The position numbers and the translations under genes were made by a program. A DNA stretch of 22,080 nucleotides from a virus: positions 1 through 22,080 of the IMG/VR virus record IMGVR_UViG_3300032213_001478. The stretch is one strand, 5' to 3'. Shown here piece after piece: positions 8,501-21,634 of the stretch (position 1 is the first letter of the stretch; every line of letters starts with the position of its first letter). The notes below the pieces were generated by a model that made no database searches, was not told the DNA's origin, and was given only the letters and a program-made list of their open reading frames with translations.

Positions 8501-10095
8501 TTTCCTGCAGAATAAAATCCCTCATAACTTTTTGACCAATTGCTGCCATTCCATCGATATTGAATATTAGTGGTTAAATTTGTAACATATTGGGTCTGTG
8601 TTTCGTATCGGTGATCAAATTCAACTGCCCAATGACTACCGTTAAATTCTATTATATCATTAGCATACGCTTCTAGTGGGGTGTTGTCTATACCTAACCA
8701 ATTATATAAAGGTTGAGCACCTACGCTGGTAACATAATCATTCACCAATAAGTATCTTGTACCTGTAGCTAAATCTTGAAGATCTTTATTAGGTCTGCTG
8801 GCCAATGGATCTATAATCGCATTTACTGGGGATAATGTATTAACAGGGATAGTGTCAATATCCGGAGTCCATAATAAGGCAGTGTCGTCTGCTGGATTAT
8901 AAGCTACAGTACCTACAATATTGTTTCCGTCTTCGAGTTCAAATGCAATAGTGCTGGTGCCATTGGTAAGATTTCCATATACATTTATTAAATCTCTCCA
9001 AGGTTCACTCGAGCCTAATTTCTGAGTAACTGGTGTAAATGCAATTCGATCTCCAGTATTTCCTACAACTGTGTTACTAGTAAAAATTCGATCTCCGCTA
9101 ACAGATAAAACCACACAATTTGTTACAGGACGAATGGTAGTAACAGCATTGGATTGAATAGAAACAGAACTAACTATCATTTTTTCTTCAACACCGTCAG
9201 AGTCTGACACATATACTGATGTGCCATTTACGTTACCTGTTAGTTCTTTTATTATTTGCTGCCCGAAATTGTCCTGAACGTGTTGATTGTATTTTACTAG
9301 TCTTATCTCATTGCCTAATAGGATTGTGCCATACTGTAACGGAGTAAAGGTCTGCCTACTCATTAAATTTGATTCGTTATAAATTGCTTCATCGATATTT
9401 CCGTTGGCGTCGAAAATACTAGCAATAATTTTTTGTACAACTCCTAATTTTTTGACTAAAGCAGGAGCACTAATAAAAATTGGTAATTCAAAAGTTAATG
9501 TCGCAACATCTATGGGGGTATCAGTGCCAACTGGAACTGTTCTTGAGCTCCATTGTACACTGGTCAGCAAAACATAACTTAAACTAGTCCAGTCTATGTA
9601 ATTGTCAGTACTTTGTATTTCTAATGCAGGGTTGAACAGAATAGTCAGCTGTTCTAATAGTTGCAATTTTTGTTCGGTATTACTGGTCCAAATATCTAAT
9701 TTAAGAGTTAACAGATATGGAACTGGCATAAGTCTTTCGACTGTGAGAACATCTCCTTGGGTAGTAGAATATTCTCCTGTGTTAGCATCATAATATCTTT
9801 CTCGTAGATTCAATTTTCCTACATACGTTGGATTTTGAACTCTGGATCTATCGTAAGTTAAATTATCAACATAAACAGCCATGGCAGGAACGGCGTGAAG
9901 TATGTTTTCGCTATTTTGTTGTATAATGCTGGCTACTTGTCTACTGCTATCACCATATACCACAGGAACTCGTTGATATGCAATGATACCTTGTCGATCT
10001 TTGCCAAATTCGACTTGGAAATTAGACACCATACGAATGAACTGAATTATATATCTTCGTATCTGTTGATCATAAAAAAATTGTTGTAGGGCCAT
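8482..10095 (-). CDS. 15: Proximal tail sheath stabilisation protein, gp15-like
   Basis: A 537-residue protein resembling T4-type gp15, which forms a hexameric ring capping the tail at the neck and locking the terminal sheath ring. The N-terminal 120 residues carry the family pattern: FYDQQIRRYIIQFIRMVSN, then RVPVVYGDSSRQVASI, then LHAVPAMAVYVDNLTYDRSR. Another conserved stretch is VERLMPVPYLLTLKLDIWT.N.EQKLQLLEQL. It is about twice the length of T4 gp15 (about 270). The extra C-terminal half is beta-rich and ends with two aromatic modules, IIEFNGSHWAVEFD and IQYRWNGSNWSKSYEGFY. Its ATG overlaps the gp14 stop by one base. Assigned by recognition of family pattern, not by alignment. Confidence 0.82.
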   Translation of the reverse strand: MALQQFFYDQQIRRYIIQFIRMVSNFQVEFGKDRQGIIAYQRVPVVYGDSSRQVASIIQQNSENILHAVPAMAVYVDNLTYDRSRVQNPTYVGKLNLRERYYDANTGEYSTTQGDVLTVERLMPVPYLLTLKLDIWTSNTEQKLQLLEQLTILFNPALEIQSTDNYIDWTSLSYVLLTSVQWSSRTVPVGTDTPIDVATLTFELPIFISAPALVKKLGVVQKIIASIFDANGNIDEAIYNESNLMSRQTFTPLQYGTILLGNEIRLVKYNQHVQDNFGQQIIKELTGNVNGTSVYVSDSDGVEEKMIVSSVSIQSNAVTTIRPVTNCVVLSVSGDRIFTSNTVVGNTGDRIAFTPVTQKLGSSEPWRDLINVYGNLTNGTSTIAFELEDGNNIVGTVAYNPADDTALLWTPDIDTIPVNTLSPVNAIIDPLASRPNKDLQDLATGTRYLLVNDYVTSVGAQPLYNWLGIDNTPLEAYANDIIEFNGSHWAVEFDHRYETQTQYVTNLTTNIQYRWNGSNWSKSYEGFYSAGKWQITI

Positions 10096-11468
10096 TAATT
10101 GTCTGCCTTGGGTGTTAGTGCTTTACTAAGCGATTGTCTAGTAGGTAATGTCTGACCTTCCTTAGTTGTAAATGTGGTTGTATTATTTACAAATACACTA
10201 CGTTGTGTTTGATTATTTGGGCCAGGAGTTAGACTTGTTCTTACACTGTCTTCAATTTTAATCCATCTAGTGCCATTGTATCTAAACAACCTATTAGGTA
10301 CGTAATCTGTGCGTAAAGCATAGTCCCCGATTGTGGGACTGTTTGGAAAAGAGGTACCAACAGTAACAGGCCAGCCGTTAGGGGTGCTACCATCGCCTCC
10401 CAAATATGCAGGTATGTCTGTGTCCGGAGTCGTTGCTTGAACTGACGCAAAATTTAAAGAAGAATCAACGGTCATTGTGGATATATCTACTTGTACGCCA
10501 GTAGGATCCCCTGGACTTCCGTCAGGATTAATCGGTTCTATGTATAAATTATCAGTGTCTGTTCCGCTTTTAGGAACATCAATTTCTGCTTGTTCAATGA
10601 TTGCATCATTGATATTAATTAATTTGTCCAGTGTACTTAAATAATTTCCAACAGGAGTAGCATTTGCATCATTGCCTGTAAGCTGATTTAGTATATCTTT
10701 ATATTCTTGACTGTCTACTAGCGGAGTTAATTTAACTCGCCATAGATGCGGCCACCACGTTTGACTAAATCCTTCGGCGGCAAAACTAGCATCTTGTACT
10801 ACATAATACCTTTTTAACACAGCCGGAATGTCAGCATTAAGTGGGTAATAATCTTTTTTATGTTGAAGTTCTAATACATCACCTGACATTATTTTTCTAC
10901 CCAGTGCTGCTACCGTATCATTTAAATGAAACGTCATATAGATAGTATCTGCACTTAAAAAAATACCAAATTGTTTTAAATCAAAATCATTATCATTAAC
11001 ATTATAAACACCCCGAAGAGTATAGACGGAAGTCTCATATTTTCGATCCCTGTTTTCTAAAAATAACAAATCTTGAATATTTAAGGCACTTTGATTTTGA
11101 TAAACAGGTTGAGTGCCATCTTTCCAAAAAATGTTAACTGGTTGCCCTGAGCTAATAGTTGATGTGACATTAGACGAAAGTGTCACGGTATTCACTGCGG
11201 AATTTGTACTAAAAATTACAGTGTTAGCGGAAATTCCAATTCCGCTTACAGTTTGTCCTACTTCAAAAGTAGCAACATTGGAAAAGTATAAAGTACGGCC
11301 AGAAACGGTGGAATTCGAAGTTGCATACGAATTTGCTTGGGTATTCGTCCCCACATACTTGTGCAACAGAATACCGGTTCCGCCAACTGTAAATTGTTCA
11401 CTTATAACTTTATCGAAAAAGTTGTAGTCATTGGTGTGGTTTTCACGCCACATGCTTAGTCTAGGCAT
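10095..11468 (-). CDS. 14: Neck protein, gp14-like
   Basis: A 457-residue protein resembling the gp14 neck protein of T4-like phages, which with gp13 completes the head and forms the tail docking site. The gp14-like core is at about 140-265: LKQFGIFLSADTIYMTFHLND, GDVLELQHKKDYYPL, LKRYYVVQDASFAAEGFS, WWPHLWRVKLTPL. A serine/threonine-rich beta insertion (about 47-115) splits the N-terminus. The tail (372-457) has SPTIGDYALRTDYVPNRLF, NGTRWIKIED and SLTPGPNNQTQRSVFVNN, familiar from aquatic T4-like gp14. T4 gp14 is only about 256 aa. Start ATG at 11468 follows a late-type promoter at 11496-11489 and a weak GGAA site. It is the first gene of the minus-strand unit gp14-gp15-Nudix. Confidence 0.78.
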   Translation of the reverse strand: MPRLSMWRENHTNDYNFFDKVISEQFTVGGTGILLHKYVGTNTQANSYATSNSTVSGRTLYFSNVATFEVGQTVSGIGISANTVIFSTNSAVNTVTLSSNVTSTISSGQPVNIFWKDGTQPVYQNQSALNIQDLLFLENRDRKYETSVYTLRGVYNVNDNDFDLKQFGIFLSADTIYMTFHLNDTVAALGRKIMSGDVLELQHKKDYYPLNADIPAVLKRYYVVQDASFAAEGFSQTWWPHLWRVKLTPLVDSQEYKDILNQLTGNDANATPVGNYLSTLDKLININDAIIEQAEIDVPKSGTDTDNLYIEPINPDGSPGDPTGVQVDISTMTVDSSLNFASVQATTPDTDIPAYLGGDGSTPNGWPVTVGTSFPNSPTIGDYALRTDYVPNRLFRYNGTRWIKIEDSVRTSLTPGPNNQTQRSVFVNNTTTFTTKEGQTLPTRQSLSKALTPKADN

Positions 11469-11488
11469 TTTTAATTCCGTTTATTGTA

Positions 11489-11496
11489 TATTTATG
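11489..11496 (-). promoter_or_regulatory. Late-type promoter for gp14-gp15-Nudix
   Basis: Reading the minus strand, the octamer CATAAATA is a near match to the T4 late promoter TATAAATA. With T4 spacing, transcription would start near 11483 and give a leader of about 15 nt with a weak GGAA ribosome site. It is followed by T, like the other late-type motifs in the window. Confidence 0.65.
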
Positions 11497-11502
11497 GTTA
11501 AG

Positions 11503-11531
11503 TTGACACAAAAACCCATTTCATGTATAAT
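11503..11531 (+). promoter_or_regulatory. Consensus sigma-70 promoter with predicted start on the ATG
   Basis: A perfect -35 TTGACA (11503-11508), a 17-bp spacer and a perfect -10 TATAAT (11526-11531). Standard spacing puts +1 at 11538, exactly the A of the ATG of the 89-aa gene, so the mRNA would be leaderless. It lies back to back with the minus-strand late promoter at 11489-11496. Confidence 0.85.
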
Positions 11532-11537
11532 TAAAAA

Positions 11538-11807
11538 ATGGACTATCAACAGCCAGAGTTGTTAAATCGATTAAGTGTATGCGATAAAATAGTTCGCTCT
11601 TATCCTTTTGGACAGACAAAACGGGATCTTACAAAAATGTATACCAACGTTATGTCATTAAATAACGAAAGGGACAAGGCTCTAGTAGAATGCCGTCGAG
11701 TGGGGAAAACCACCAGTGAATACGAAAAGAAGCAGTCGGAATTAGAACTAGCATTGACAAATTTAGAAAGCTATATAACTATGGCAATTTTAATTAAACC
11801 GGAGTAA
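11538..11807 (+). CDS. Hypothetical 89-aa helical protein
   Basis: I do not recognise this small protein. It is charged and helical, with a likely coiled-coil stretch at about 40-80 (NNERDKALVECRRVG...EYEKKQSELELALTNLESYI). No signal peptide or membrane segment is seen. No Shine-Dalgarno is present: the bases before the ATG are the -10 box and an A-run, which agrees with a leaderless mRNA from the consensus promoter at 11503-11531. The next gene starts 3 nt after its stop, and that gene's GGAG ribosome site (11801-11804) lies at the end of this one, so the pair forms an operon. A host-type promoter suggests expression before the late structural genes. Confidence 0.8.
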   Translation: MDYQQPELLNRLSVCDKIVRSYPFGQTKRDLTKMYTNVMSLNNERDKALVECRRVGKTTSEYEKKQSELELALTNLESYITMAILIKPE

Positions 11808-11810
11808 AAA

Positions 11811-12968
11811 ATGGCAATTGTTGCTGGAATTAAGGTTAAAAAGAAAGAAGTTAAAGTTCGTAATCCGCTATTTGCGGATGAAAAATATACAGGTCCTGAG
11901 CCAGAATGGCCTTCAGAGTCTGTGAATTGGCCCGACGATCAATTTGATAATCGTTTGCGTCGAAGTTTTTACTACTACAATTATTTTTACAATCAAAAAG
12001 ATTGTAAAAAATATGTCACTGAATGGATGAAATCTGTTGGTACATGGGATAAAGAACAAATTAAAGCTTTCGACCGTGCTGGCGATCGTAGTGTGCCCAT
12101 GACTGCTTGCAGTCTAGTCATGGCCCATAAAGTCGGGATGACTCTAAGGGAAAGACACCTTACATATCTGACTAATTCTATCAATGAAGCTATCCGTGAC
12201 GCCGAGCCAGAAAAAATTGAAGTTGTGGCTACAAAAGTAGCTGAACCCTATAAACCAACAATTCAAGATAGACTTGCAGAAAAAACAAGTGAACTAATTG
12301 GCGAACTTGAAGGCTACTACGACGAAATTGATCAGACTAATGTAAAATTTTATGACTGGCTAGTCAATAATAATGTAGTACAAAGTCAATTGGTGAAGTA
12401 TGAAAATCTTTTTCAAACGCGAAAAGACGAACTTGAAAATGCAAGGCAAAAAACTGATCCTCAATTGGTTGAAGGTTACAGTCATTATAAAGTCGCAGAT
12501 TTTAAAAAACGTATTAAATGGATTGAAGATCTATTGGCCGCAATTGAACAATATCGCGGTGTAAAAAAGGCAACGAAAAAAGCAAGGGTTAAAAAAGCCC
12601 CTAGCAAAGAAAAAGTCATTTCAAAACTCAAATACGCAAAAGAAGATAAACTCTTAAAGATTGTGTCCATTAATCCTGCAGATATTGTTGGCTCAGCGGA
12701 ACTGTGGATTTATAATAATAAAACTAGAAAACTTGGAAAATACGTGGCTGCTTCATATCAAACGTTGTCAGTCAAAGGGACTACTATAATTGGATTTGAT
12801 GCAGATAAATCTGTGAGCAAGACTCTAAGAAAACCCGAGGAACAACTTAAAGAGTTTGCAAAAGCCGGCAAAATAGCACTGCGAACTTTTATGAAAGATA
12901 TCAAAGCAGTGGAAACCAAACTCAATGGTAGAATTGGCATAGATATACTGCTGTTAAAAGCCAGTTAA
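11811..12968 (+). CDS. Hypothetical 385-aa protein with basic hinge
   Basis: Function not recognised. The N-terminal third carries a lysine-rich start (KVKKKEVKVRN, 8-18), a Trp/Pro/Asp segment (PEWPSESVNWPDD) and an aromatic cluster FYYYNYFY (53-60). The middle (about 140-245) is charged and helical. A strongly basic linker at about 250-268 (KKATKKARVKKAPSKEK) resembles a nucleic-acid-binding hinge. The C-terminal domain (about 270-385) has LLKIVSINPADIVGSAELWIYN, RKLGKY and TLRKPEEQLKEF; it looks compact and conserved, and I have the impression of similar proteins in aquatic T4-like phages. GGAG at 11801-11804 gives good translation. An intrinsic terminator follows at 12987-13024. DNA or RNA binding is only a guess from charge. 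Confidence 0.85.
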   Translation: MAIVAGIKVKKKEVKVRNPLFADEKYTGPEPEWPSESVNWPDDQFDNRLRRSFYYYNYFYNQKDCKKYVTEWMKSVGTWDKEQIKAFDRAGDRSVPMTACSLVMAHKVGMTLRERHLTYLTNSINEAIRDAEPEKIEVVATKVAEPYKPTIQDRLAEKTSELIGELEGYYDEIDQTNVKFYDWLVNNNVVQSQLVKYENLFQTRKDELENARQKTDPQLVEGYSHYKVADFKKRIKWIEDLLAAIEQYRGVKKATKKARVKKAPSKEKVISKLKYAKEDKLLKIVSINPADIVGSAELWIYNNKTRKLGKYVAASYQTLSVKGTTIIGFDADKSVSKTLRKPEEQLKEFAKAGKIALRTFMKDIKAVETKLNGRIGIDILLLKAS

Positions 12969-12986
12969 TTTCATAATGTATCCTTG

Positions 12987-13024
12987 AGTCCTGTTAGCTA
13001 AATATTGCTAACAGGACTATTTTT
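12987..13024 (+). terminator. Intrinsic terminator abutting the gp13 start codon
   Basis: A perfect 12-bp stem, AGTCCTGTTAGC (12987-12998) pairing with GCTAACAGGACT (13007-13018), with an 8-nt loop TAAATATT and the U-tract ATTTTT running straight into the gp13 ATG at 13025. It terminates the 89/385-aa unit. The 3' arm holds AGGA (13013-13016), the likely Shine-Dalgarno of gp13, eight bases before the ATG, so it would be paired in read-through RNA. Confidence 0.88.
12998..13004 (+). promoter_or_regulatory. Late-type promoter core in the terminator loop
   Basis: CTAAATA followed by TT lies at the loop of the terminator before gp13. It differs from the window's other late cores by one base (CTAAATA against ATAAATA). 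With T4 late spacing the start would be near 13010, inside the 3' arm, leaving a 15-nt leader that keeps AGGA but lacks the 5' arm of the hairpin. Confidence 0.5.
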
Positions 13025-14176
13025 ATGACCGATGTTGTAATACAACCAGATTTAAAAGGGGATCTTAGTTTAAGAACTAAAAACTTAGGCGGCCCCGGCT
13101 TTATTAGCCAAGAAAGTGCCATGGCAGTAAATGAGCAAATTCAGACATTAGCTCAGTTACGCAACGAAATGATTGACTATATAAGGCTTCGTTTAGGCGA
13201 TCAAATAGTTGATGTAGAATTAGACAAAGAACATTACGATCTTGCTATTAAACAAGCACTTACAAAATACAGACAAAAAGCACAAAACAGTGTAGAAGAA
13301 AGTTATGCATTCCTGGATTTAATTCCAAACGTTCAAGAATACATTCTTCCAAATAATATTATGGAAGTCAGGCAGATTTTTAGACGGGGTATAGGCAGTA
13401 CAACCGGAACTACAGCTAGTCAATTTGAGCCGTTTGCATCGGGCTACTTAAACACTTATATGTTGGTAGCTGGTCGTGTTGGCGGACTGACAAATTACGA
13501 ATTATTTGCACAGTACCAAGAATTAGCAATGATGATGTTTGGGGGATATATTAACTATACCTGGAACAAAGTCACCAAAAAGCTTACATTAGTAAGAAAA
13601 ATTCCGTATGACGACGGCACCGTAGTTAATCTTAATTCTTTGGTAGCAGTGGGCGCTGAAATACAAATAGTTCTTCAGAGACCACAAACCCAACTTAAGA
13701 TTGGGGATAGTGTTTATATTCAAAAATGTCCCGTTCAAGGATATAACTCGCAGTATCGAATACAGACAATTAATCCAGCTGGGACACAAATTACAGTTTT
13801 GGCAAATCAAACTCTGGGGGCTACCAGCGTTACAGGAACTGACTTACAAAAAACTCAGTTTATGATACCAAATTTAGACCCTGAAAATGATAATTTTGAA
13901 GGTGTTCTTCTTTGGATTTACAATTATAAACCGGACAGTATGCTATTAAGTGATCCACAAGTTTACCCCTGGTTACAGGAATATTCTTTAGCATTTTGTA
14001 AAAGTATATTAGGACAAGCTAGAGGAAAATTTGCTAGTATTGCAGGACCACAGTCGGGCACTCAGTTGAATGGAGCAGCATTATTGGCAGAAGCTCAAGC
14101 CGAAATGGAACAGTTAGAAAAAGATTTGGCAAATTATGTTGATGGATCAGAACCGTTGACATGGGTCATAGGTTAA
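13025..14176 (+). CDS. 13: Neck protein, gp13-like
   Basis: A 383-residue protein resembling T4-like gp13, which with gp14 seals the filled head and receives the tail. Recognisable blocks: LRNEMIDYIRLRLGDQIVDVELDKEHYDLAIKQAL region (45-79), VEESYAFLDLIPNVQEYILP (90-109), IMEVRQIFRRGIGSTTGT (112-129), FAQYQELAMMMFG (161-173), VLLWIYNYKPDSMLLSDPQVYPWLQEY (294-320) and GPQSGTQLNGAALLAEAQAEMEQLE, ending EPLTWVIG. T4 gp13 is about 309 aa; the excess is a beta-rich insertion at about 196-292 (LKIGDSVYIQKCPVQGYNS...). The start at 13025 follows the hairpin with AGGA eight bases upstream. It is separated from gp14-gp15, which lie on the other strand. Confidence 0.87.
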   Translation: MTDVVIQPDLKGDLSLRTKNLGGPGFISQESAMAVNEQIQTLAQLRNEMIDYIRLRLGDQIVDVELDKEHYDLAIKQALTKYRQKAQNSVEESYAFLDLIPNVQEYILPNNIMEVRQIFRRGIGSTTGTTASQFEPFASGYLNTYMLVAGRVGGLTNYELFAQYQELAMMMFGGYINYTWNKVTKKLTLVRKIPYDDGTVVNLNSLVAVGAEIQIVLQRPQTQLKIGDSVYIQKCPVQGYNSQYRIQTINPAGTQITVLANQTLGATSVTGTDLQKTQFMIPNLDPENDNFEGVLLWIYNYKPDSMLLSDPQVYPWLQEYSLAFCKSILGQARGKFASIAGPQSGTQLNGAALLAEAQAEMEQLEKDLANYVDGSEPLTWVIG

Positions 14177-14184
14177 TGTAAAAT
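14156..14184 (+). promoter_or_regulatory. Sigma-70 promoter for dNMP kinase, overlapping the gp13 stop
   Basis: TTGACA (14156-14161), a 17-bp spacer and TAAAAT (14179-14184; one mismatch to TATAAT). The elements lie over the last codons and stop of gp13. Predicted +1 is about 14191, inside the 5' arm of the terminator at 14185-14208, so the new transcript would begin within the hairpin and leave the GGAG at 14196-14199 single-stranded. Confidence 0.62.
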
Positions 14185-14208
14185 AAGGACTCCTGGGAGT
14201 CCTTTTTT
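14185..14208 (+). terminator. Intrinsic terminator abutting the dNMP kinase start codon
   Basis: Stem AAGGACTC (14185-14192) with GAGTCCTT (14197-14204), loop CTGG, then four more Ts ending at the ATG at 14209. It would end transcripts from gp13. GGAG (14196-14199), nine bases before the ATG, spans the last loop base and the start of the 3' arm and is the likely ribosome site of the kinase gene. An A-rich stretch upstream may let it also work on the minus strand. Confidence 0.87.
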
Positions 14209-14805
14209 ATGATTATTGGTATTTGTGGTCTTATTGGTGCAGGCAAAGACACTGCCGCAGATTATTTGGTAAATTTTTATGGCTTTCGACGAGATAGCTT
14301 TGCAGCTACTCTTAAAGATGCAGTAGCATCAGTGTTTGGGTGGGACAGAGAGTTACTAGAAGGTCGCACTAAAAACGCCAGGGAATGGAGAGAACAAATA
14401 GACCCTTGGTGGTCTAATCGTTTGAACATGCCCCAATTAACGCCCAGACTTGTACTACAGTTGTGGGGCACAGAAGTTTGTCGAAAAGGATTTCATGATG
14501 ATATCTGGATTGCCAGCGTTGAAAACAAAATACGACTGGCCAAAGATAACATTGTCATCAGTGATTGTCGATTTCCCAATGAAATTCAAAGTATTCGTAA
14601 TGCAGGCGGCCGCGTAATACGTATTTCCCGCGGCCCAGATCCAGACTGGTTTAATCTAGCACGTATTGCACCAAATGAAATGCAAAAAATATATCCAACA
14701 ATTCATGCAAGCGAATACAGTTGGGCATCCACTAATTTCGATCTAATTGTAGACAATAACGGGTCAATTGAAGATTTATACGATCAACTTAAAAATCTGG
14801 TGTAA
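14209..14805 (+). CDS. 1: Deoxynucleoside monophosphate kinase, gp1-like
   Basis: Phosphorylates dNMPs to dNDPs for phage DNA synthesis. A 198-residue P-loop kinase with the Walker A motif GLIGAGKDT (7-15), RDSFAATLKDAVASVFGWDRELLEG (28-52) typical of the T4 gp1/dNMP-kinase family, VISDCRFPNE (the Walker-B-like strand with D, R and E) and a lid-side HASEYSW. T4 gp1 is about 241 aa, so this is a compact form. The ATG at 14209 comes directly after the terminator U-tract, with GGAG nine bases upstream. Its last 17 nt overlap the 3' end of the minus-strand zinc-finger gene. Enzyme genes of this type are usually early, which agrees with the sigma-70-like promoter at 14156-14184. Confidence 0.92.
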   Translation: MIIGICGLIGAGKDTAADYLVNFYGFRRDSFAATLKDAVASVFGWDRELLEGRTKNAREWREQIDPWWSNRLNMPQLTPRLVLQLWGTEVCRKGFHDDIWIASVENKIRLAKDNIVISDCRFPNEIQSIRNAGGRVIRISRGPDPDWFNLARIAPNEMQKIYPTIHASEYSWASTNFDLIVDNNGSIEDLYDQLKNLV

Positions 14806-15139
14806 GGGGACTTTCCTTCCAAGGCAACCTGCTGGCTGCCACTTCTACCCTACAATTTAAACACAATGTTCTTAGATTTGGTGTAGAAGTATTTTTAAGA
14901 TTGCCGTCTATGTGAAAAACTGTCATTTGTTTTTCTGGGTACTTACCTCGATACCCACATTTTTCGCACACAGATTTTTTTCGATACCCTGACTTAAACC
15001 AATTTGGGGGTATCGGCTTCAACTTTTTGCCTTTACGAATACAACTATCGCATAGTTTCCTATAATGATGTTGTCCTTCTTTTATATAATTTATTGCGGC
15101 TGGATTAGAATTACAGACTACACATAAAGGTCTTTGCAT
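14789..15139 (-). CDS. Zinc-finger protein with HNH-like C-terminal half
   Basis: A 116-residue protein with two probable zinc sites: C6-x2-C9 with C30-x2-C33, and C58-x2-C61 with C93-x2-C96. Between the second pair lies VFHIDGNLKNTSTPNLRTLC, close to the HNH pattern 'H.DGn..NN...NL..LC..C' (H76, D78, N89). The position where HNH nucleases often have a final histidine (CxxCH) is R97, so cleavage activity is doubtful. Similar small proteins occur, to my recollection, in aquatic T4-like phages. I start at ATG 15139; ATG 15142 is adjacent and in frame. A longer frame would need TTG at 15163, upstream of the promoter. No Shine-Dalgarno is visible. It could be a DNA-binding regulator or a degenerate nuclease. 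Confidence 0.75.
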   Translation of the reverse strand: MQRPLCVVCNSNPAAINYIKEGQHHYRKLCDSCIRKGKKLKPIPPNWFKSGYRKKSVCEKCGYRGKYPEKQMTVFHIDGNLKNTSTPNLRTLCLNCRVEVAASRLPWKESPLTPDF

Positions 15140-15143
15140 CATA

Positions 15144-15151
15144 TATTTATG
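15144..15151 (-). promoter_or_regulatory. Late-type promoter for the zinc-finger gene
   Basis: On the minus strand CATAAATA is followed by T and then ATGATG. T4 late spacing predicts a start at about 15138, one base from the A of the second ATG, so the mRNA would be leaderless or nearly so. Confidence 0.55.
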
Positions 15152-15197
15152 AAACCTTTGCAAAGGGCAACCAAACAGCCCATATTTTATTTCTTTC

Positions 15198-15205
15198 GAT
15201 AAATA
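15198..15205 (+). promoter_or_regulatory. Late-type promoter for sheath and tube
   Basis: GATAAATA followed by T. Predicted start is about 15211, giving a 23-nt leader with GAGG (15221-15224) nine bases before the sheath ATG. This is the most conventional of the late-type promoters here, in front of the gene expected to be among the most highly expressed late genes. Confidence 0.72.
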
Positions 15206-15233
15206 TCTTTACAGAATAATGAGGAAATGAAAC

Positions 15234-18200
15234 ATGGCATTAGTTTCACCAGGCGTACAAGTTACAGTTACAGATCAAAGCAATTATGCACCAACTGCAT
15301 TAGGATCGGTAGCTTACCTTCTTGTGGCAACCGCCCAAAATAAAGTTGCCCCAGGTGGTACCGCATTAGCTGCTGGTACCTTACAAGAAAATGCAGGCAA
15401 GATTTATACTATAACTAGTCAAAGAGATCTAGTAACCACATTTGGTACACCCATTTTTAAAACAACATCTGGTGGTGCACCTATAAATGGGGACGAACAA
15501 AACGAATATGGCCTGCTGGCAGCATACAGTGCATTAGGGGTCAGCAATGTAATTTATGTACAAAGAGCTAACGTTGATTTAGGTGCGTTGGGCGGAACAA
15601 CTTCTAGACCATTGGCAAATCCAAGTAACGGTAACTTATGGCTAGATGTTTCCAGTAGTGACTGGGGCGTATACGAATGGGTTTCTAGTACTCAATCGTT
15701 CTCTAAAAAATCAACTTCGGTGATTACAAATACAACATATTTGCAAGGAGATAACTTTACTCCAACAGCAAACATTGGACAAATTGGTGATTACACAGTT
15801 AACGCATATGATGTAAATAATCCAGTTTTTTACAAAAGATTTGATAATACATGGCAGCTAGTGGGTAGTAAAGGTTGGCAAGCAGCTATACCAGCAGTTA
15901 CAGGAACTGCAACTAATCCAGTAATTGCAAACACCAGTATCATTAGTATTAATAGTACTAACGTAACATTGACTGGTTCTTCTAACGTTTCTACGGTTAA
16001 CTCTGCAATTAACTCTGCAAGTATAACAGGAATTCAATCTCGTGTTTTAAACGGACAACTTGTTATCAGTGCTACAGCAGACGCCACCAATTCTGCATGT
16101 AACATTGTAAATGCAAGTGGAACAGCGTTGACCACATTGGGTATCACTGCTGGAATTTATCCAGCTGCTGTAACAGCTATAGCACCTTATAATCAAATTC
16201 CGGAATGGCAAGGAAATGCATTCGTTGGAAAACCATCTGGATCTGTTTGGCAAAAAGCCAGTACATTAGGCAGTGGAATGAATATGTCTGTTAAGGAATA
16301 TAACAGTACAACAGGCGTATGGACAGCAAGAACTGTAAACAATTATGCAAATGTGTTCACCGCAACTTACGGATTAGATCCTACAGGTGGTGGTTTAAAT
16401 ATTGCTCAAGGTACAGTTTTTAGTCAATATAATGCATTTGGAAATCTAACTTGCACAAACTATCTATGGCAACGTGTTAGCACAGGTTCTACAGTTGTTG
16501 TAGCTAATACTAATTCGGTGGTTGCACCAGGCGTTGGTAGTAGCTTTACATTGCAAACAAGAGCTAATGCAACACTAGGAACGGTCACTTCATACAATGT
16601 AACAGTTACTACAGGTACTGTAGTTGGATTTGTACAGGCTGTACTTGCTGCTGCTATTCCTAACGTAACAGCAGACCAAGATGATTCGGGTGCAGTAAGA
16701 TTAACACATACCCAAGGTGGTGATATGGTGTTTGTTGATGGGGCAGGAACTCCGTTGGCGAATGTAGGTATTAATTCTACAGCAACAAGAGTTTATCCAA
16801 CTCCACAAGTGGGTGACACCGCATTAGTTGGAACAAATTGGAAACCATTGGAAGATGTAACTTATACAGCCAGTGCTACTCAACCTTATGTGGCACCAGC
16901 TAATAATTCATTATGGTATTACAATACTCCAACCAGAGCAGATATTATGGTAAGCAACGGGTCTGCTTGGGTAGGATACAGAACATTAAGTTCAGACATT
17001 CGCGGGTATAATCTAACTCAAACAAACTCAACAGGGCCTATACTTTCTACAGAGGCTCCAACTAGGCAAGATGACAACACAGCGTTAGTATACGGTGATT
17101 TGTGGTTAGACACAGGTGATTTAGAAAACTATCCAAAAATTTATAGATGGCAAAATGTAACCGGCGTTGATCAATGGGTATTATTAGATAATACAGATTC
17201 AGTTAGTCAAAACGGAATTATTTTTGCAGATGCTCGTTGGGCGACAAGTGGGACTACAAGTCCATCATTGGATGCTATTCCAACTATCACAGCGTTATCT
17301 ATCAGCAACTACGTTGATTTAGATGCACCGGATGCTACATTATATCCACGTGGCATGCTGATATTCAATACAAGGGCCAGCGGGTACAATGTAAAAGAAT
17401 ATAGGGTAAATTATTTTAACAGTGCTTCATATCCTAACCAATCATTGCCTACGCAAAAAGATGCATGGGTAACAATAAGTGGATTCGATGCTCAAGGAGT
17501 TCCAAACTTTGGTAGAAAAGCTCCTCGTGGTGTAGTGGTTGCAGCCTTAAAATCTGCAATTGATAGCAGCACAGCACTGAGAGAAGATGCTAATAACTTC
17601 AATTTAATTTCATGTCCGGGTTATCCAGAATTAATTCAAAATATGACTGCATTGAACGAAGATCGTGATAATACAGCATTCATAATTGGGGACACTCCGT
17701 TGCGTTTACAAGGCACAGGAACATCAATTCAAGCTTGGGCACAAAATTCCGAAGGAGTAACAACAACCAGTGAAGGTGGTTTAGTTACTATAAATCCTTA
17801 TGTTGGAATATACTACCCTCAAGGACAAACCAACGATTTAAGTGGTAATCCAGTGGTAGTGCCGGCAAGTCATGCTGTTATAAGAGCAATTATTAAGAGT
17901 GATAACATCAGTTATCCTTGGTTAGCACCAGCTGGAACACGTAGGGGTTTAATTGATAACCTTAATGCTATAGGATACATTGATAGTGCAAGTGGTCAAT
18001 TTATTAATATAGGTGTAACTCAAGGTCTAAGAGATGTACTCTACACTAATAAAATTAATCCACTTACTTTCCTTCCAGGAAATGGATTGTTGATTTATGG
18101 ACAAAAGACACTGAGTTCTACTCCTAGCGCACTGGACAGAATTAATGTTGCCCGTCTGGTTAACTATCTAAGACAGACTTTAAATACTATTAGTAGACCG

Positions 18201-18488
18201 TTTGTGTTTGAACCAAATGATCCTATTACAAGAAATGCAATTCTTGCAGTAGTAAACAGTTTACTAAACGATTTAGTAGCAAAACGAGGTGTGACAGACT
18301 ACTTAGTAGTGTGTGACACAACAAACAACACGCCTGAGCGTATTGCCAGAAATGAGTTGTATGTAGATGTAGCAGTTCAACCAACTAAAGATGTTGAATT
18401 TATTTACATTCCTATCAGACTTAAGAATCCTGGCGAAATACAGGATGGTAATTTAGCAAGTGCATCAGCAGTAGGAACAGGAGCATAA
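15234..18488 (+). CDS. 18: Tail sheath protein, gp18-like
   Basis: The contractile sheath subunit, 1084 residues against 659 in T4. The N-terminus SPGVQVTVTDQSNYAPTALGS and YLLVATAQN, then ITSQRDLVTTFGTP (54-67) and EYGLLAAYSALGVSNVIYVQRA, are sheath hallmarks. The conserved C-terminal domain (about 905-1075) holds GLRDVLYTNKINPLTFLPGNGLLIYGQKTL, INVARLVNYLRQTL, FVFEPNDPITRNAILAVVNSLL and VDVAVQPTKDVEFIYIPIRL. The enlarged middle carries two related beta modules (about 229-310 and 424-520) that each end in GT.L..(L/V)GI, plus several aromatic 'LW..../W' units near 133, 335, 557 and 621. These probably decorate the outer surface. A late promoter and GAGG precede it; the tube gene follows after 1 nt. 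Confidence 0.95.
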   Translation: MALVSPGVQVTVTDQSNYAPTALGSVAYLLVATAQNKVAPGGTALAAGTLQENAGKIYTITSQRDLVTTFGTPIFKTTSGGAPINGDEQNEYGLLAAYSALGVSNVIYVQRANVDLGALGGTTSRPLANPSNGNLWLDVSSSDWGVYEWVSSTQSFSKKSTSVITNTTYLQGDNFTPTANIGQIGDYTVNAYDVNNPVFYKRFDNTWQLVGSKGWQAAIPAVTGTATNPVIANTSIISINSTNVTLTGSSNVSTVNSAINSASITGIQSRVLNGQLVISATADATNSACNIVNASGTALTTLGITAGIYPAAVTAIAPYNQIPEWQGNAFVGKPSGSVWQKASTLGSGMNMSVKEYNSTTGVWTARTVNNYANVFTATYGLDPTGGGLNIAQGTVFSQYNAFGNLTCTNYLWQRVSTGSTVVVANTNSVVAPGVGSSFTLQTRANATLGTVTSYNVTVTTGTVVGFVQAVLAAAIPNVTADQDDSGAVRLTHTQGGDMVFVDGAGTPLANVGINSTATRVYPTPQVGDTALVGTNWKPLEDVTYTASATQPYVAPANNSLWYYNTPTRADIMVSNGSAWVGYRTLSSDIRGYNLTQTNSTGPILSTEAPTRQDDNTALVYGDLWLDTGDLENYPKIYRWQNVTGVDQWVLLDNTDSVSQNGIIFADARWATSGTTSPSLDAIPTITALSISNYVDLDAPDATLYPRGMLIFNTRASGYNVKEYRVNYFNSASYPNQSLPTQKDAWVTISGFDAQGVPNFGRKAPRGVVVAALKSAIDSSTALREDANNFNLISCPGYPELIQNMTALNEDRDNTAFIIGDTPLRLQGTGTSIQAWAQNSEGVTTTSEGGLVTINPYVGIYYPQGQTNDLSGNPVVVPASHAVIRAIIKSDNISYPWLAPAGTRRGLIDNLNAIGYIDSASGQFINIGVTQGLRDVLYTNKINPLTFLPGNGLLIYGQKTLSSTPSALDRINVARLVNYLRQTLNTISRPFVFEPNDPITRNAILAVVNSLLNDLVAKRGVTDYLVVCDTTNNTPERIARNELYVDVAVQPTKDVEFIYIPIRLKNPGEIQDGNLASASAVGTGA

Positions 18489-18489
18489 T

Positions 18490-19107
18490 ATGGCAGTTTC
18501 ATCGTTAACAAGATTCACAGTCCCATTGGGTGGTAACCAAAGTGCTACCAACCAAGGCTTATTAATGCCAAAACTTAAATTTAGATTTAGAGCTACATTT
18601 GATAATTTTGGTGTGAGTAATCCTAAGACAGAATTAACAAAACAAATTATGACGTTTGCTCGTCCGCAAGTAACATTTGATCCAATCGAAGTTCCTGTGT
18701 ACAACAGCCGAGTTTATTTGGCTGGTCGCCCAACTTGGAATGCAGTTGCAGTATCATTGCGTGATGATGCAGGCGGTAACGTTTCTAGACTAGTAGGAGA
18801 ACAGTTACAGAAGCAATTCGACTTCATGGAACAGGCAAGTGCAAGTTCTGGAATTGATTACAAGTTCATGACTACATTAGAGATGTTAGATGGTGCAAAC
18901 GGTACAGTTGAGCCAGTAGTACTAGAAACATGGCAGCTATACGGATGTTTCTTAACAGATGTAAATTATAATGACGTCGACTATGGTAGCAATGACATGG
19001 TTACTATAACTATGAGTATACGTTACGATAATGCTATACAAACAACAGGCGGCGGAGTAGGCGCTCCTGGTATAACACAGTTTAACACTGCTGCTATCAC
19101 AGGATAA
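18490..19107 (+). CDS. 19: Tail tube protein, gp19-like
   Basis: Major subunit of the inner tail tube. A 205-residue protein with the gp19 pattern: PKLKFRFRATFDNFG (27-41), TKQIMTFARPQVTFDPIEVPVYNSRVYLAGRPTWNAVAVSLRDD region (50-93), LEMLDGANGTVEPVVLETWQLYGCFLTDVNYNDVDYGSND and a final MVTITMSIRYDNA strand. T4 gp19 is 163 aa. GGAG (18480-18483) at the end of the sheath gene, six bases before the ATG, serves as its ribosome site, so it is translated from the sheath message. A strong terminator follows at 19127-19151, closing the sheath-tube unit. Confidence 0.95.
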   Translation: MAVSSLTRFTVPLGGNQSATNQGLLMPKLKFRFRATFDNFGVSNPKTELTKQIMTFARPQVTFDPIEVPVYNSRVYLAGRPTWNAVAVSLRDDAGGNVSRLVGEQLQKQFDFMEQASASSGIDYKFMTTLEMLDGANGTVEPVVLETWQLYGCFLTDVNYNDVDYGSNDMVTITMSIRYDNAIQTTGGGVGAPGITQFNTAAITG

Positions 19108-19155: not shown

Positions 19156-19163
19156 AATAAATA
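19156..19163 (+). promoter_or_regulatory. Late-type promoter with predicted start on the ATG
   Basis: AATAAATA followed by T. T4 late spacing places +1 at 19169, the A of the ATG of the 821-aa gene, and no Shine-Dalgarno lies between. It would give a leaderless late mRNA. Confidence 0.65.
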
Positions 19164-19168
19164 TTAGT

Positions 19169-21634
19169 ATGGCCTCATTATATAACGCTGATTTAAAACC
19201 TTTAGCTAAAGGGACGTTCACACATCCGTATGATCATGCAACTAAATTGTTTGTTACAGATACATATAGATTAGCACCCAAGCAAAGTTTTTTATATTAT
19301 GTTGTAATTAATATAGATCCAAGCCAAACTCAGTTGGGTAGTGGATTTCTTGGGGGAGTTTTAAGTTTTGCCGATAGATTCCAAAATTTAGAAACTGGGA
19401 TGTTAGTTAAAAGAGTTGAATTACCAAAATTTAGCATAGGTACTAAGACTCTGAATGCATATAATAGAAAAAATATTGTACAAACTAATATTCAATATGA
19501 ACCAGTTAATTTTACTTTTCATGACGATGCAGCAGATGTAATTACAAATTTTTGGAATGATTATTATACGTATTACTATAGAGATAGTGATTATGGTGTA
19601 AATGATTACTCCCGACCAGAGAAGTATGCGCCAAGAAACAAAATTGGTTGGGGTTATAGCCCAAGAAATAGTTCGTTACCGAATTTTATAAAAAATATCA
19701 GAATTTTTAGTTTACACAATAAACGATTTACTGAGTACCTTTTAGTCAATCCTATCATAACAGGTTGGCAACACGGTGAACATGATTCTTCAAATGATAG
19801 AAGTTTAATGGAAAACAAAATGACGGTGACATATGAAACAGTCAAATATTTTACAGGGTTTGTAAACCCAGTTAGCGTAGACGGTTTTTCGTTATTGCAT
19901 TATGATAATGCTAGTAGCCCAATTAGCACCAGTGTAACTAATATCTACACGGATGCAGGATTTTTAGGTGTATTAGATTCAGTTCCCAAAGATCTTAGAA
20001 AACCAGATGGATCAAATGGTGCTGGCGGTCCGTTGTCTAGTCTATTGTCTATGTTTAGATTATATAATAATTTAAAAAATGTAAATCTTAAAACAGTGGT
20101 TGGAACAACTTTGGGCTCAGCGGGTGTTGGTATTCTTAACAGTGCAGTTAATCAAGGATTGAATTATGTATTTCCTACATTAGGTGGCGGCCCAGCCGGT
20201 ATTAACGGGTCAGGAGTTGTGTCTGGCGGAGCAATAGGAAATTATCCTTATGCTAGCACTGTGCCTAATTTTGGCGCAACTATAGCAGGCAGTGCTGTTG
20301 GTGCAGTAACAGGAGCTGCTGTTAATGCAGTAAATGGCGGAATAAACTATGTAAGTTCTCAAATAAATCGAGGAATCGATAACGCAGTAAGTGGCATATT
20401 CCCCCCAACTGTCGGCAGCACTGCGGTAACAGACGTGGTAGACAATACAGGTCGAGTGATTGTAAATTCTTCTTCATTGCAGCCAATTACCGGAACTTCT
20501 ACTGCTGTTTATTATGATAGTCAAGGTAATCCAATATCCAGGATACAGGTATCTGGTACACAGTCAGGCAGCTATAATCCCAGCAACTTAAGTGAAAATT
20601 TATTGTATGCACAAACAGTCACAGATCCATCAGGTCAAGAAATTATTGTTAATCAATACCGCGACGGAACACAAGTCAGATATGATTCAGTAACAGGTAA
20701 CACTTTACAAGTTATTCCAGGTTCAAACAGTAATAACGTCATAGGATTACCAAATCAAAATATTAATACAAATCCAATTGACTCGCGAACTCTAGCAGCA
20801 CAGGGAGTTGTATCACCGGCAAACAGTGTTCAATATAGAACAGATCCTGGAACTGGGTTAATATACACTGTGGGAAATAGCACAACTGCACTATTTACTA
20901 ATACTCTTGCAGGGGCAACTGGCGCTGGTGTAGGATTATATGCAGGTCAGAGCTTAAATAATGCATTGAATAAAACCGGACTAGGAAATTCTGTTATTGG
21001 TCGGGTTGTGTCTGGCGCAGTGGCTACCGCAACAGGGGCAGCCGTGGGTCGTGCGGTTAATAACGGATTACAAGTTGTAATTAATAAAGCAACAGGCGCA
21101 ATAACACAAGGATTTGACCCCGCATCAGGACAAATTAGAAACGTTGCAAGTACATGGACCGGATCAGGCGGATACAATGCAACTAAACCATTGGATAATA
21201 CTGTATCTAAACAAATATTTGATGACGGGTCTTCATTGTTTGTATATAAAGATGGAACAGTTCGTGCTATCAGTTCGGACGGTAAAGAAACATTGACACC
21301 AGGATCAAATGATTCTGGTTTACTAAGTTTCTTCAACAAGCCGCCAGGACAAAATATAGACTCGGCTGCTGTGGAGGCACCGTATGGTGGTATATGGACA
21401 GATGGTAGCGGAAATCCAATATATACTGGATCTGGAGAATATGTGTATTATGGAGATCCATCGCTTCAACCTACAGCACTCACAGAAGAACAATGGAATT
21501 CAATGAATCAATCTGCTATTGATAATATAAACAATATAGTTGCACAAGACGTGGCAAATGGTGTCGATTTAAGCGGCCCCAGTGATTCAGATATTTTGGA
21601 ATATCAAAAAAGTTTAGGTGATTTCTTTGGATAA
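19169..21634 (+). CDS. Large virion protein: tube-like N-terminus, glycine-zipper C-terminus
   Basis: An 821-residue protein placed right after the tube gene. Residues about 1-240 look like a gp19/gp54-type tube domain: FLYYVVINIDPSQ, LETGMLVKRVELPKFSIGTKTLNAYNRKN, PVNFTFHDDAADVITNFWNDYYTYYY and VNPIITGWQHGEHD. The rest is low-complexity, Gly/Ala/Asn/Ser-rich. It has two hydrophobic glycine-zipper stretches, at about 370-396 (ATIAGSAVGAVTGAAVNAVN) and 581-634 (VVSGAVATATGAAVGRAV), and Tyr/Asp-rich repeats (YDSQGNPIS, YRDGTQVRYDSVTG, FVYKDGTVRAIS). It might be a tube initiator/terminator or hub component with a membrane-active or chaperoned tail. No Shine-Dalgarno; probably a leaderless late mRNA. 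Exact role unknown. Confidence 0.8.
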   Translation: MASLYNADLKPLAKGTFTHPYDHATKLFVTDTYRLAPKQSFLYYVVINIDPSQTQLGSGFLGGVLSFADRFQNLETGMLVKRVELPKFSIGTKTLNAYNRKNIVQTNIQYEPVNFTFHDDAADVITNFWNDYYTYYYRDSDYGVNDYSRPEKYAPRNKIGWGYSPRNSSLPNFIKNIRIFSLHNKRFTEYLLVNPIITGWQHGEHDSSNDRSLMENKMTVTYETVKYFTGFVNPVSVDGFSLLHYDNASSPISTSVTNIYTDAGFLGVLDSVPKDLRKPDGSNGAGGPLSSLLSMFRLYNNLKNVNLKTVVGTTLGSAGVGILNSAVNQGLNYVFPTLGGGPAGINGSGVVSGGAIGNYPYASTVPNFGATIAGSAVGAVTGAAVNAVNGGINYVSSQINRGIDNAVSGIFPPTVGSTAVTDVVDNTGRVIVNSSSLQPITGTSTAVYYDSQGNPISRIQVSGTQSGSYNPSNLSENLLYAQTVTDPSGQEIIVNQYRDGTQVRYDSVTGNTLQVIPGSNSNNVIGLPNQNINTNPIDSRTLAAQGVVSPANSVQYRTDPGTGLIYTVGNSTTALFTNTLAGATGAGVGLYAGQSLNNALNKTGLGNSVIGRVVSGAVATATGAAVGRAVNNGLQVVINKATGAITQGFDPASGQIRNVASTWTGSGGYNATKPLDNTVSKQIFDDGSSLFVYKDGTVRAISSDGKETLTPGSNDSGLLSFFNKPPGQNIDSAAVEAPYGGIWTDGSGNPIYTGSGEYVYYGDPSLQPTALTEEQWNSMNQSAIDNINNIVAQDVANGVDLSGPSDSDILEYQKSLGDFFG

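Follow-up and report, generated by a model that had tools for sequence, protein, structure and literature searches.

The window, as we call the whole stretch of 22,080 nt that was analysed, carries on its forward strand a gene for a gp13-type neck protein, which is preceded by two genes with their own sigma70-type promoter and followed by a deoxynucleoside monophosphate kinase gene. The features at this locus are as follows.

11503-11531, + strand: sigma70-type promoter of the upstream operon, TTGACA-17-TATAAT (12/12).
11538-12968, + strand: two upstream genes (89 aa and 385 aa), the 385-aa product matching phrog_11903 of unknown function.
12987-12998, + strand: 5' arm of the hairpin, present in read-through RNA only, wholly upstream of the predicted +1.
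12999-13004, + strand: TAAATA, a T4-type late promoter core in the loop, assigned by its conservation, its clustering before gene starts and the CBB/GAP32 late motif.
13007-13018, + strand: 3' arm of the hairpin, assigned by complementarity, folding and the alignment of relatives.
13010, + strand: predicted late transcription start (+1), placed by T4 spacing.
13013-13016, + strand: AGGA Shine-Dalgarno (SD) sequence inside the 3' arm, assessed by its predicted unpaired probability.
13020-13024, + strand: run of five Ts, both terminator-like tail and spacer between SD and ATG, assigned from the sequence and from runs of at least four Ts in relatives.
13025-14176, + strand: gp13-type neck protein, head-tail adaptor Ad2 (phrog_211, E 1.1e-30).
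14156-14184, + strand: sigma70-like promoter of the next gene, TTGACA-17-TAAAAT (11/12).
14185-14204, + strand: second hairpin, spanning a predicted +1 at 14191, with an SD-like GGGAG (14195-14199) in its loop and 3' arm, then four Ts and the ATG.
14209-14805, + strand: deoxynucleoside monophosphate kinase (phrog_139, E 3.6e-53).

Positions 12987-13018 form a perfect 12-bp hairpin with six G-C pairs and an eight-base loop, TAAATATT (12999-13006), which is followed by an A and five Ts (13019-13024) and then directly by the gp13 ATG at 13025; the AGGA in the 3' arm lies 8 nt from that ATG, and the whole intergenic gap measures 56 nt. A first-pass annotation of this DNA had pointed to the hairpin, to the T-run reaching the start codon and to the AGGA within the 3' arm, all of which are confirmed in the sequence, and the hairpin exceeds chance in shuffles. 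It had also put CTAAATA (12998-13004) in the loop, which holds for TAAATA only, because the C is the final base of the 5' arm. The hairpin is the sole terminator-like site with 12 pairs in a scan of positions 9000-19000, and no other perfect stem of at least 12 bp with a loop of 3-12 nt occurs in the window, nor does any in 60 dinucleotide-preserving shuffles. Folding of the 101 nt around it gave z = -3.3, with 0/200 shuffles folding as well, and a chance hairpin was rejected on these grounds. Its stable, G-C-containing stem and T-run are those of an intrinsic terminator; since the 5' side has no A-run, such a terminator would work in one direction.

The window appears to be a piece of a jumbo phage like RaK2, CBB and PA5oct. 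Among named phages, the proteins related to its neck protein are all less than 60% identical and come from jumbo phages of the RaK2/121Q/CBB/PA5oct/Atu_ph07 kind; one relative with 75% identity is carried by a record of 338,510 bases (G001). TAAATA occurs 20 times in the window, fewer than the 38 sites expected, and CTAAATA twice against 6.5 expected; the motif is not rare by itself, and it is therefore its position that counts and not its presence. The T4 late core TATAAATA is reported to sit at -13 to -6, and the late promoter of Aeh1 to have CTAAATA from -12 (PMC1524935); another account describes T4 late promoters as a TATA box lying roughly one turn ahead of the start (PMC2988020). The T4 geometry of TATAAATA therefore places the predicted +1 at 13010, in the 3' arm and three bases before AGGA, and with that spacing a late RNA is predicted to lack the 5' strand of the stem.

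ATAAATA has been reported as the late motif of CBB and GAP32, standing before structural genes in CBB, alongside a gp55-like sigma factor, with gp33 and gp45 co-activators reported as undetected in CBB (PMC5259590). We found relatives of the CBB sigma, a query that itself matches the late sigma families phrog_12791 and phrog_234, in all nine genomes searched, G001 included; a record of only 22 kb, such as that of the window, is too short to reveal one. TAAATA clusters ahead of gene starts in six jumbo genomes and is conserved before gp13, as expected of a T4-type late promoter with a TATAAATA-like core at -13 to -6 before virion genes, the start position itself being a prediction. In G001, the sites just 5' of a start mostly fall into two classes, with ends 4-7 nt (24 sites) and 15-27 nt before it; none end at 8-14 nt, and others scatter farther out. 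The 24 close sites correspond to predicted leaderless late mRNAs, and a further candidate lies in the window at 19158-19171, where TAAATA ends 4-7 nt before a start and a GCTCGC hairpin with six Ts comes just before.

To compare gp13 loci, 138 rows were assembled: the window itself, ten named phages, 80 relatives of the window protein (the best among 277) and 47 loci contributed by three further scans; some rows represent one phage from two collections (e.g. L104 and L204). TAAATA lies 13-50 nt before a start at 129/138 of these loci, which reduce to 76 distinct leaders, and a chance TAAATA was rejected because the motif, common overall, is yet fixed in place before gp13 among relatives. Among the other nine rows, L236 starts only at the gene itself, and in L235 and L244-L250 the motif is, by eye, nearer to where the gene might start. 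In L235, L244 and L248, TAAATA stands a few nt before a possible ATG with a divergent gene upstream, possibly giving a leaderless late gp13. A helix of at least 8 bp across the predicted +1, one-base bulges allowed, is found in 58/76 distinct leaders and often consists of unrelated sequence; many leaders are close relatives and the counts are therefore not independent. By orientation of the upstream gene, hairpins are present in 55/68 codirectional and 2/6 divergent leaders, which again include related lineages. Hairpin and loop motif ahead of gp13, for which a scan of related genomes had been suggested by the first-pass annotation, are thus both widely kept.

An alignment (A1) was made of 25 leaders chosen from 40 candidates, leaving out the near copies L009 and L011 as well as leaders with a bulged stem, another register or no such stem (L034, L041, L042, L047, L056, L058, L064, L071, L076, L078, L079, L081 and L082). 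TAAATA is invariant in A1, the other two loop bases vary and the stem cells change in step; loci that keep the stem while the loop motif varies freely, which had been named beforehand as evidence against the idea, were not seen there. Pairing holds in 88.7% of stem cells against 25-47% when the arms are slid, and 14 cells are changed on both sides against 4.7 in shuffles (0/500); four rows scored as broken do pair, by eye, one column off. Counted per pair, changes on both sides affect three pairs, not above shuffles (2.2; 175/500 as high), and the nine further pair types are fewer than in shuffles (10.3), so that the evidence for compensation rests on the per-cell counts and the slid controls. 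One pair is G-U in 13/25 rows. These changes bear on a rival idea that the perfect dyad around a promoter core might suggest, in which a regulator acting on the late promoter would bind the inverted repeat as a DNA operator or as a cruciform. The arms are replaced among relatives while pairing stays and G-U is allowed, which points to pairing in RNA; a fixed protein operator was rejected because the arms turn over between relatives in A1, and we consider any operator or cruciform reading very improbable.

Stems unrelated in sequence keep the same layout in CBB, XaC1, 121Q, SD-2 and RaK2, with arms ACCCCTAAATATG...CATGTTTAGGGGT in CBB, AATCCTC...GAGGATT in XaC1 and AGCACCTC...GAGGTGCT in 121Q. 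The arms are thus altered in a compensatory manner or replaced wholesale around a fixed motif, and judged by these comparisons the gp13 element is real and appears to be under selection for pairing. PA5oct has a codirectional gene upstream of gp13, yet only a weak stem. In RaK2 (L106, NC_019526) the annotated start of the neck gene (2941) falls inside the hairpin, and the ATG directly after the stem is likelier to be the better start. Long perfect stems can undergo processing, and the hairpin might accordingly be an RNase III-type processing site or an mRNA-stability element, with TAAATA kept solely as a promoter. We give little credence to this explanation, which does not account for an SD in the 3' arm, or for a 5' arm lying ahead of the predicted +1, in one unrelated version after another.

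Predicted accessibility of the SD is in keeping with a gate on translation. In the window the mean unpaired probability of AGGA is predicted as 0.000 (to three decimals) in read-through RNA and 0.812 in late RNA, so that by prediction the ribosome site is buried in read-through RNA in the manner of T4 e and soc. The comparison was extended to 71 of the 76 leaders, L054, L057 and L058 having no SD by the rule used and L223 and L226 no orientation. For the 65 codirectional leaders the predicted median is 0.0003 in read-through against 0.54 in late RNA; the value falls below 0.2 in read-through RNA in 52/65 and exceeds 0.5 in late RNA in 41/65, some late RNAs being only partly open. The six divergent leaders give 0.34 against 0.54, with 1/6 below 0.2 in read-through RNA, a contrast with codirectional leaders that is a trend only, since the lineages are related. 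By eye, the hairpin of L056, L058 and L064 instead runs between the region of the motif and that of the SD or ATG, with its 5' arm mostly upstream of +1, as does that of several PA5oct-like leaders (L225, L231, L232, L237, L239, L240, L242 and L243); the SD prediction yields no clear gate for most of these alternative hairpins, and none for L056 and L064.

A run of at least four Ts is found in the final 14 nt before the start in 36/58 hairpin leaders and in 4/18 others (counted at the folded stem end only, 32/58 hairpin leaders have one, a figure that misses runs folded into the stem). Termination at the gp13 hairpin, which the first-pass annotation had proposed as the other half of its function, is plausible in view of these runs and is not universal: 22/58 hairpin leaders, RaK2 among them, have no such run. 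The same counts inform a simpler explanation, in which the hairpin is just the intrinsic terminator of the upstream genes, the late promoter and SD are squeezed in by short intergenic space and the hiding of the SD is a by-product. The T-run in the window and in most hairpin leaders, its enrichment at hairpin late genes generally (see below), the gap of 56 nt and the one-way character of a stem without a 5' A-run all fit it. The stem is nonetheless kept in those 22 leaders that have no T-run, and T4 genes 9, 36 and alt have, by eye, a terminator-like hairpin wholly upstream of TATAAATA, so a promoter in the loop is not forced by the presence of a terminator. The motif-to-ATG hairpins of L056, L058 and L064 also fit gating by the start site better, yet for L056 and L064 the SD prediction gives no gate. 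Taken together, we regard a terminator with an incidental effect on the SD as unlikely, though deserving of some weight.

The layout also recurs before other late genes of the six jumbo genomes. The comparison took in all 369 called genes whose start is preceded by a TAAATA that ends 13-60 nt away, and the helix between DNA upstream of +1 and the leader was compared with that of permuted partners. The mean helix energy lies below all 500 permutations in G001, CBB, RaK2, XaC1 and 121Q (0/500 each) and below 487/500 in PA5oct (13/500), and helices of -15 kcal/mol or lower occur at 43/369 genes against about 6.8 expected, one gene of the CBB terminal repeat being counted twice. No helix excess was seen in a sample of 120 of the 360 G001 genes without the motif. 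Recurrent hosts of the helix are gp13 (G001, CBB, RaK2, XaC1 and 121Q) and the tail sheath gene (CBB, RaK2, XaC1, 121Q and PA5oct); of ten proteins scanned, the remaining ones with a name include a nuclease and a phosphate transporter subunit as well as a tail fibre protein and virion proteins, and four have unknown function or no family. Runs of at least four Ts accompany 14/41 hairpin late genes and 28/328 other late genes (p = 3e-5), or 13/40 hairpin late genes without the duplicate CBB gene (p = 9e-5). In CBB (214541-215485, L126) and XaC1 (252280-253179) a terminator-like hairpin surrounds TAAATA and the SD lies downstream of it, possibly a termination-only version that would be useful to separate both functions.

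As a control, 45 T4 genes were picked, of which 24 have the motif, and each was ranked among 24 upstream partners. Six of the seven known gated genes, segB, I-TevI, I-TevII, I-TevIII, soc and e, rank first or second (0.04-0.08), and the seventh, gene 49, ranks just 0.33. Genes 53, 4 and inh have helix energies stronger than e and soc with less special ranks (0.21, 0.21 and 0.12), and a cut-off of -15 would miss e and soc, which reach only -9.8 and -10.7; the energy cut-off used is therefore neither complete nor specific.

A further proposal, that the element insulates neighbouring operons so that no cross-talk occurs, found no backing in two genome-wide tests. In the six genomes, strong helices (-12 or lower) occur equally often behind divergent (15/75) and codirectional neighbours (59/293), and in G001 hairpin late genes do not follow early promoters (early, 1/10; late, 4/16; none, 2/15), a result resting on crude promoter and gene calls, which placed gp13 under "none" although a gene on its strand, some 1.7 kb upstream, is preceded by a sigma70-like match. 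The total of such matches in G001 barely exceeds a backward-read control (202 against 185), so that only their position near starts is informative.

The genes on either side of gp13 have promoters of the sigma70 type. The -10 element of the upstream operon ends so near the ATG at 11538 that its RNA is predicted to be leaderless (+1 being the A of the ATG) and to run towards the gp13 hairpin; this promoter is conserved, its -10 ending 5-7 nt ahead of the ATG in all 11 distinct leaders found, window included. The 89-aa and 385-aa genes are presumed to be the source of read-through RNA and are probably early. Leaderless early mRNAs are likewise predicted in G001, where 13/43 ATG-linked sigma70-type matches have their -10 end 5-7 nt before the ATG, and at G001 99096-100142 (- strand) the -35 TTGACT of the next promoter, also predicted leaderless, shares bases with a terminator-like T-run.

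Downstream, the layout is repeated before the kinase gene with a sigma70-like promoter in place of the late one. Its -35 TTGACA (14156-14161) lies within the end of the gp13 reading frame, in relatives as well, so that coding and promoter constraints overlap. The 42 distinct kinase leaders divide into 27 in which a sigma70-like promoter is followed by a leader of SD length, nine predicted leaderless and six with no clear promoter. The 27 SD-length leaders show a mean helix of -6.2 against -3.8 permuted (0/500) and a run of at least four Ts in 16/27; most have a hairpin, and three fold none in that stretch. An HNH endonuclease-like reading frame (14789-15163, - strand) lies antiparallel between the kinase and tail sheath genes.

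We therefore favour, with a probability of about 0.78, a reading in which the hairpin encloses a late promoter, sequesters the SD and can probably act as a terminator too. RNA entering from upstream, probably from early genes, would carry both arms and fold in vivo, and may then terminate at the T-run; RNA reading past the T-run would have its AGGA buried and leave gp13 untranslated. Late in infection, a gp55-type sigma would bring RNA polymerase to TAAATA, and RNA starting near 13010 would lack the 5' arm, leaving AGGA free 8 nt before the ATG, with the result that the neck protein would be made only at that stage. The central idea of the first-pass annotation, that a late promoter between the arms frees an SD which upstream RNA hides, is in this way strongly supported by the comparison (motif at 129/138 loci, helix in 58/76 leaders, predicted burial in 52/65).

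More tentatively, and with the balance of our judgement against it, the 5' end of the RNA itself could gate translation at many early and late genes of this jumbo lineage, either by a leaderless start on or near the AUG or by a hairpin straddling +1 that hides the SD unless the gene's own promoter is used. Early and late genes could then be interleaved on one strand although their transcription is not cleanly separated, and a hairpin gate and a leaderless start could take each other's place at one gene, as the division of the kinase leaders suggests. If the favoured reading of the gp13 hairpin is true, giant phages would make recurrent use of a trick familiar from a few T4 genes (lysozyme, soc, gene 49 and homing endonucleases), one that survives complete replacement of its arms and is often joined to transcription termination. 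It would help to explain the time slots of early and late genes on one strand and would offer compact promoter-terminator-ribosome-binding-site parts; the many independent stem versions make the gate directly testable.

The gp13 hairpin is predicted to share its sequestration arrangement with T4 e, soc, 49 and I-TevI, for which a long early or middle RNA is described as hiding the SD or start codon, with the late promoter placed so that late RNA lacks the 5' strand; gating of this type is likewise described for I-TevII, I-TevIII, segB and Aeh1 mobE, and the virion genes soc, 25 and 26 are named as repressed by RNA structure (PMC3014915, PMC2988022), so that a structural gene as target is not new. 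Unlike jumbo-phage gp13, gene 13 of T4 itself lacks TAAATA in the stretch 10-60 nt upstream. The jumbo-phage element also differs from the T4 gate in the terminator-like T-run that often follows the stem, in being kept across genera with unrelated arms and in the sigma70 counterpart borne by the next gene in the window. The ATAAATA promoters of CBB and GAP32 have the same motif and belong to the same broad phage group as the window, with gp55 relatives in G001 and eight other genomes; their published account, in its accessible part, treats promoters and 74 terminators separately and makes no mention of promoters inside hairpins (PMC5259590). In the accessible parts of the open-access literature we found no description of a late promoter inside a terminator hairpin, which is weak evidence of absence. 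Like an intrinsic terminator, the gp13 hairpin has a G-C-containing stem followed by five Ts; unlike a plain one, its stem encloses a promoter core and an SD and is kept in leaders without a T-run. The gate mechanism is known from T4, and what differs is the frequent T-run (36/58) and the wide conservation of the element despite turnover of its sequence.
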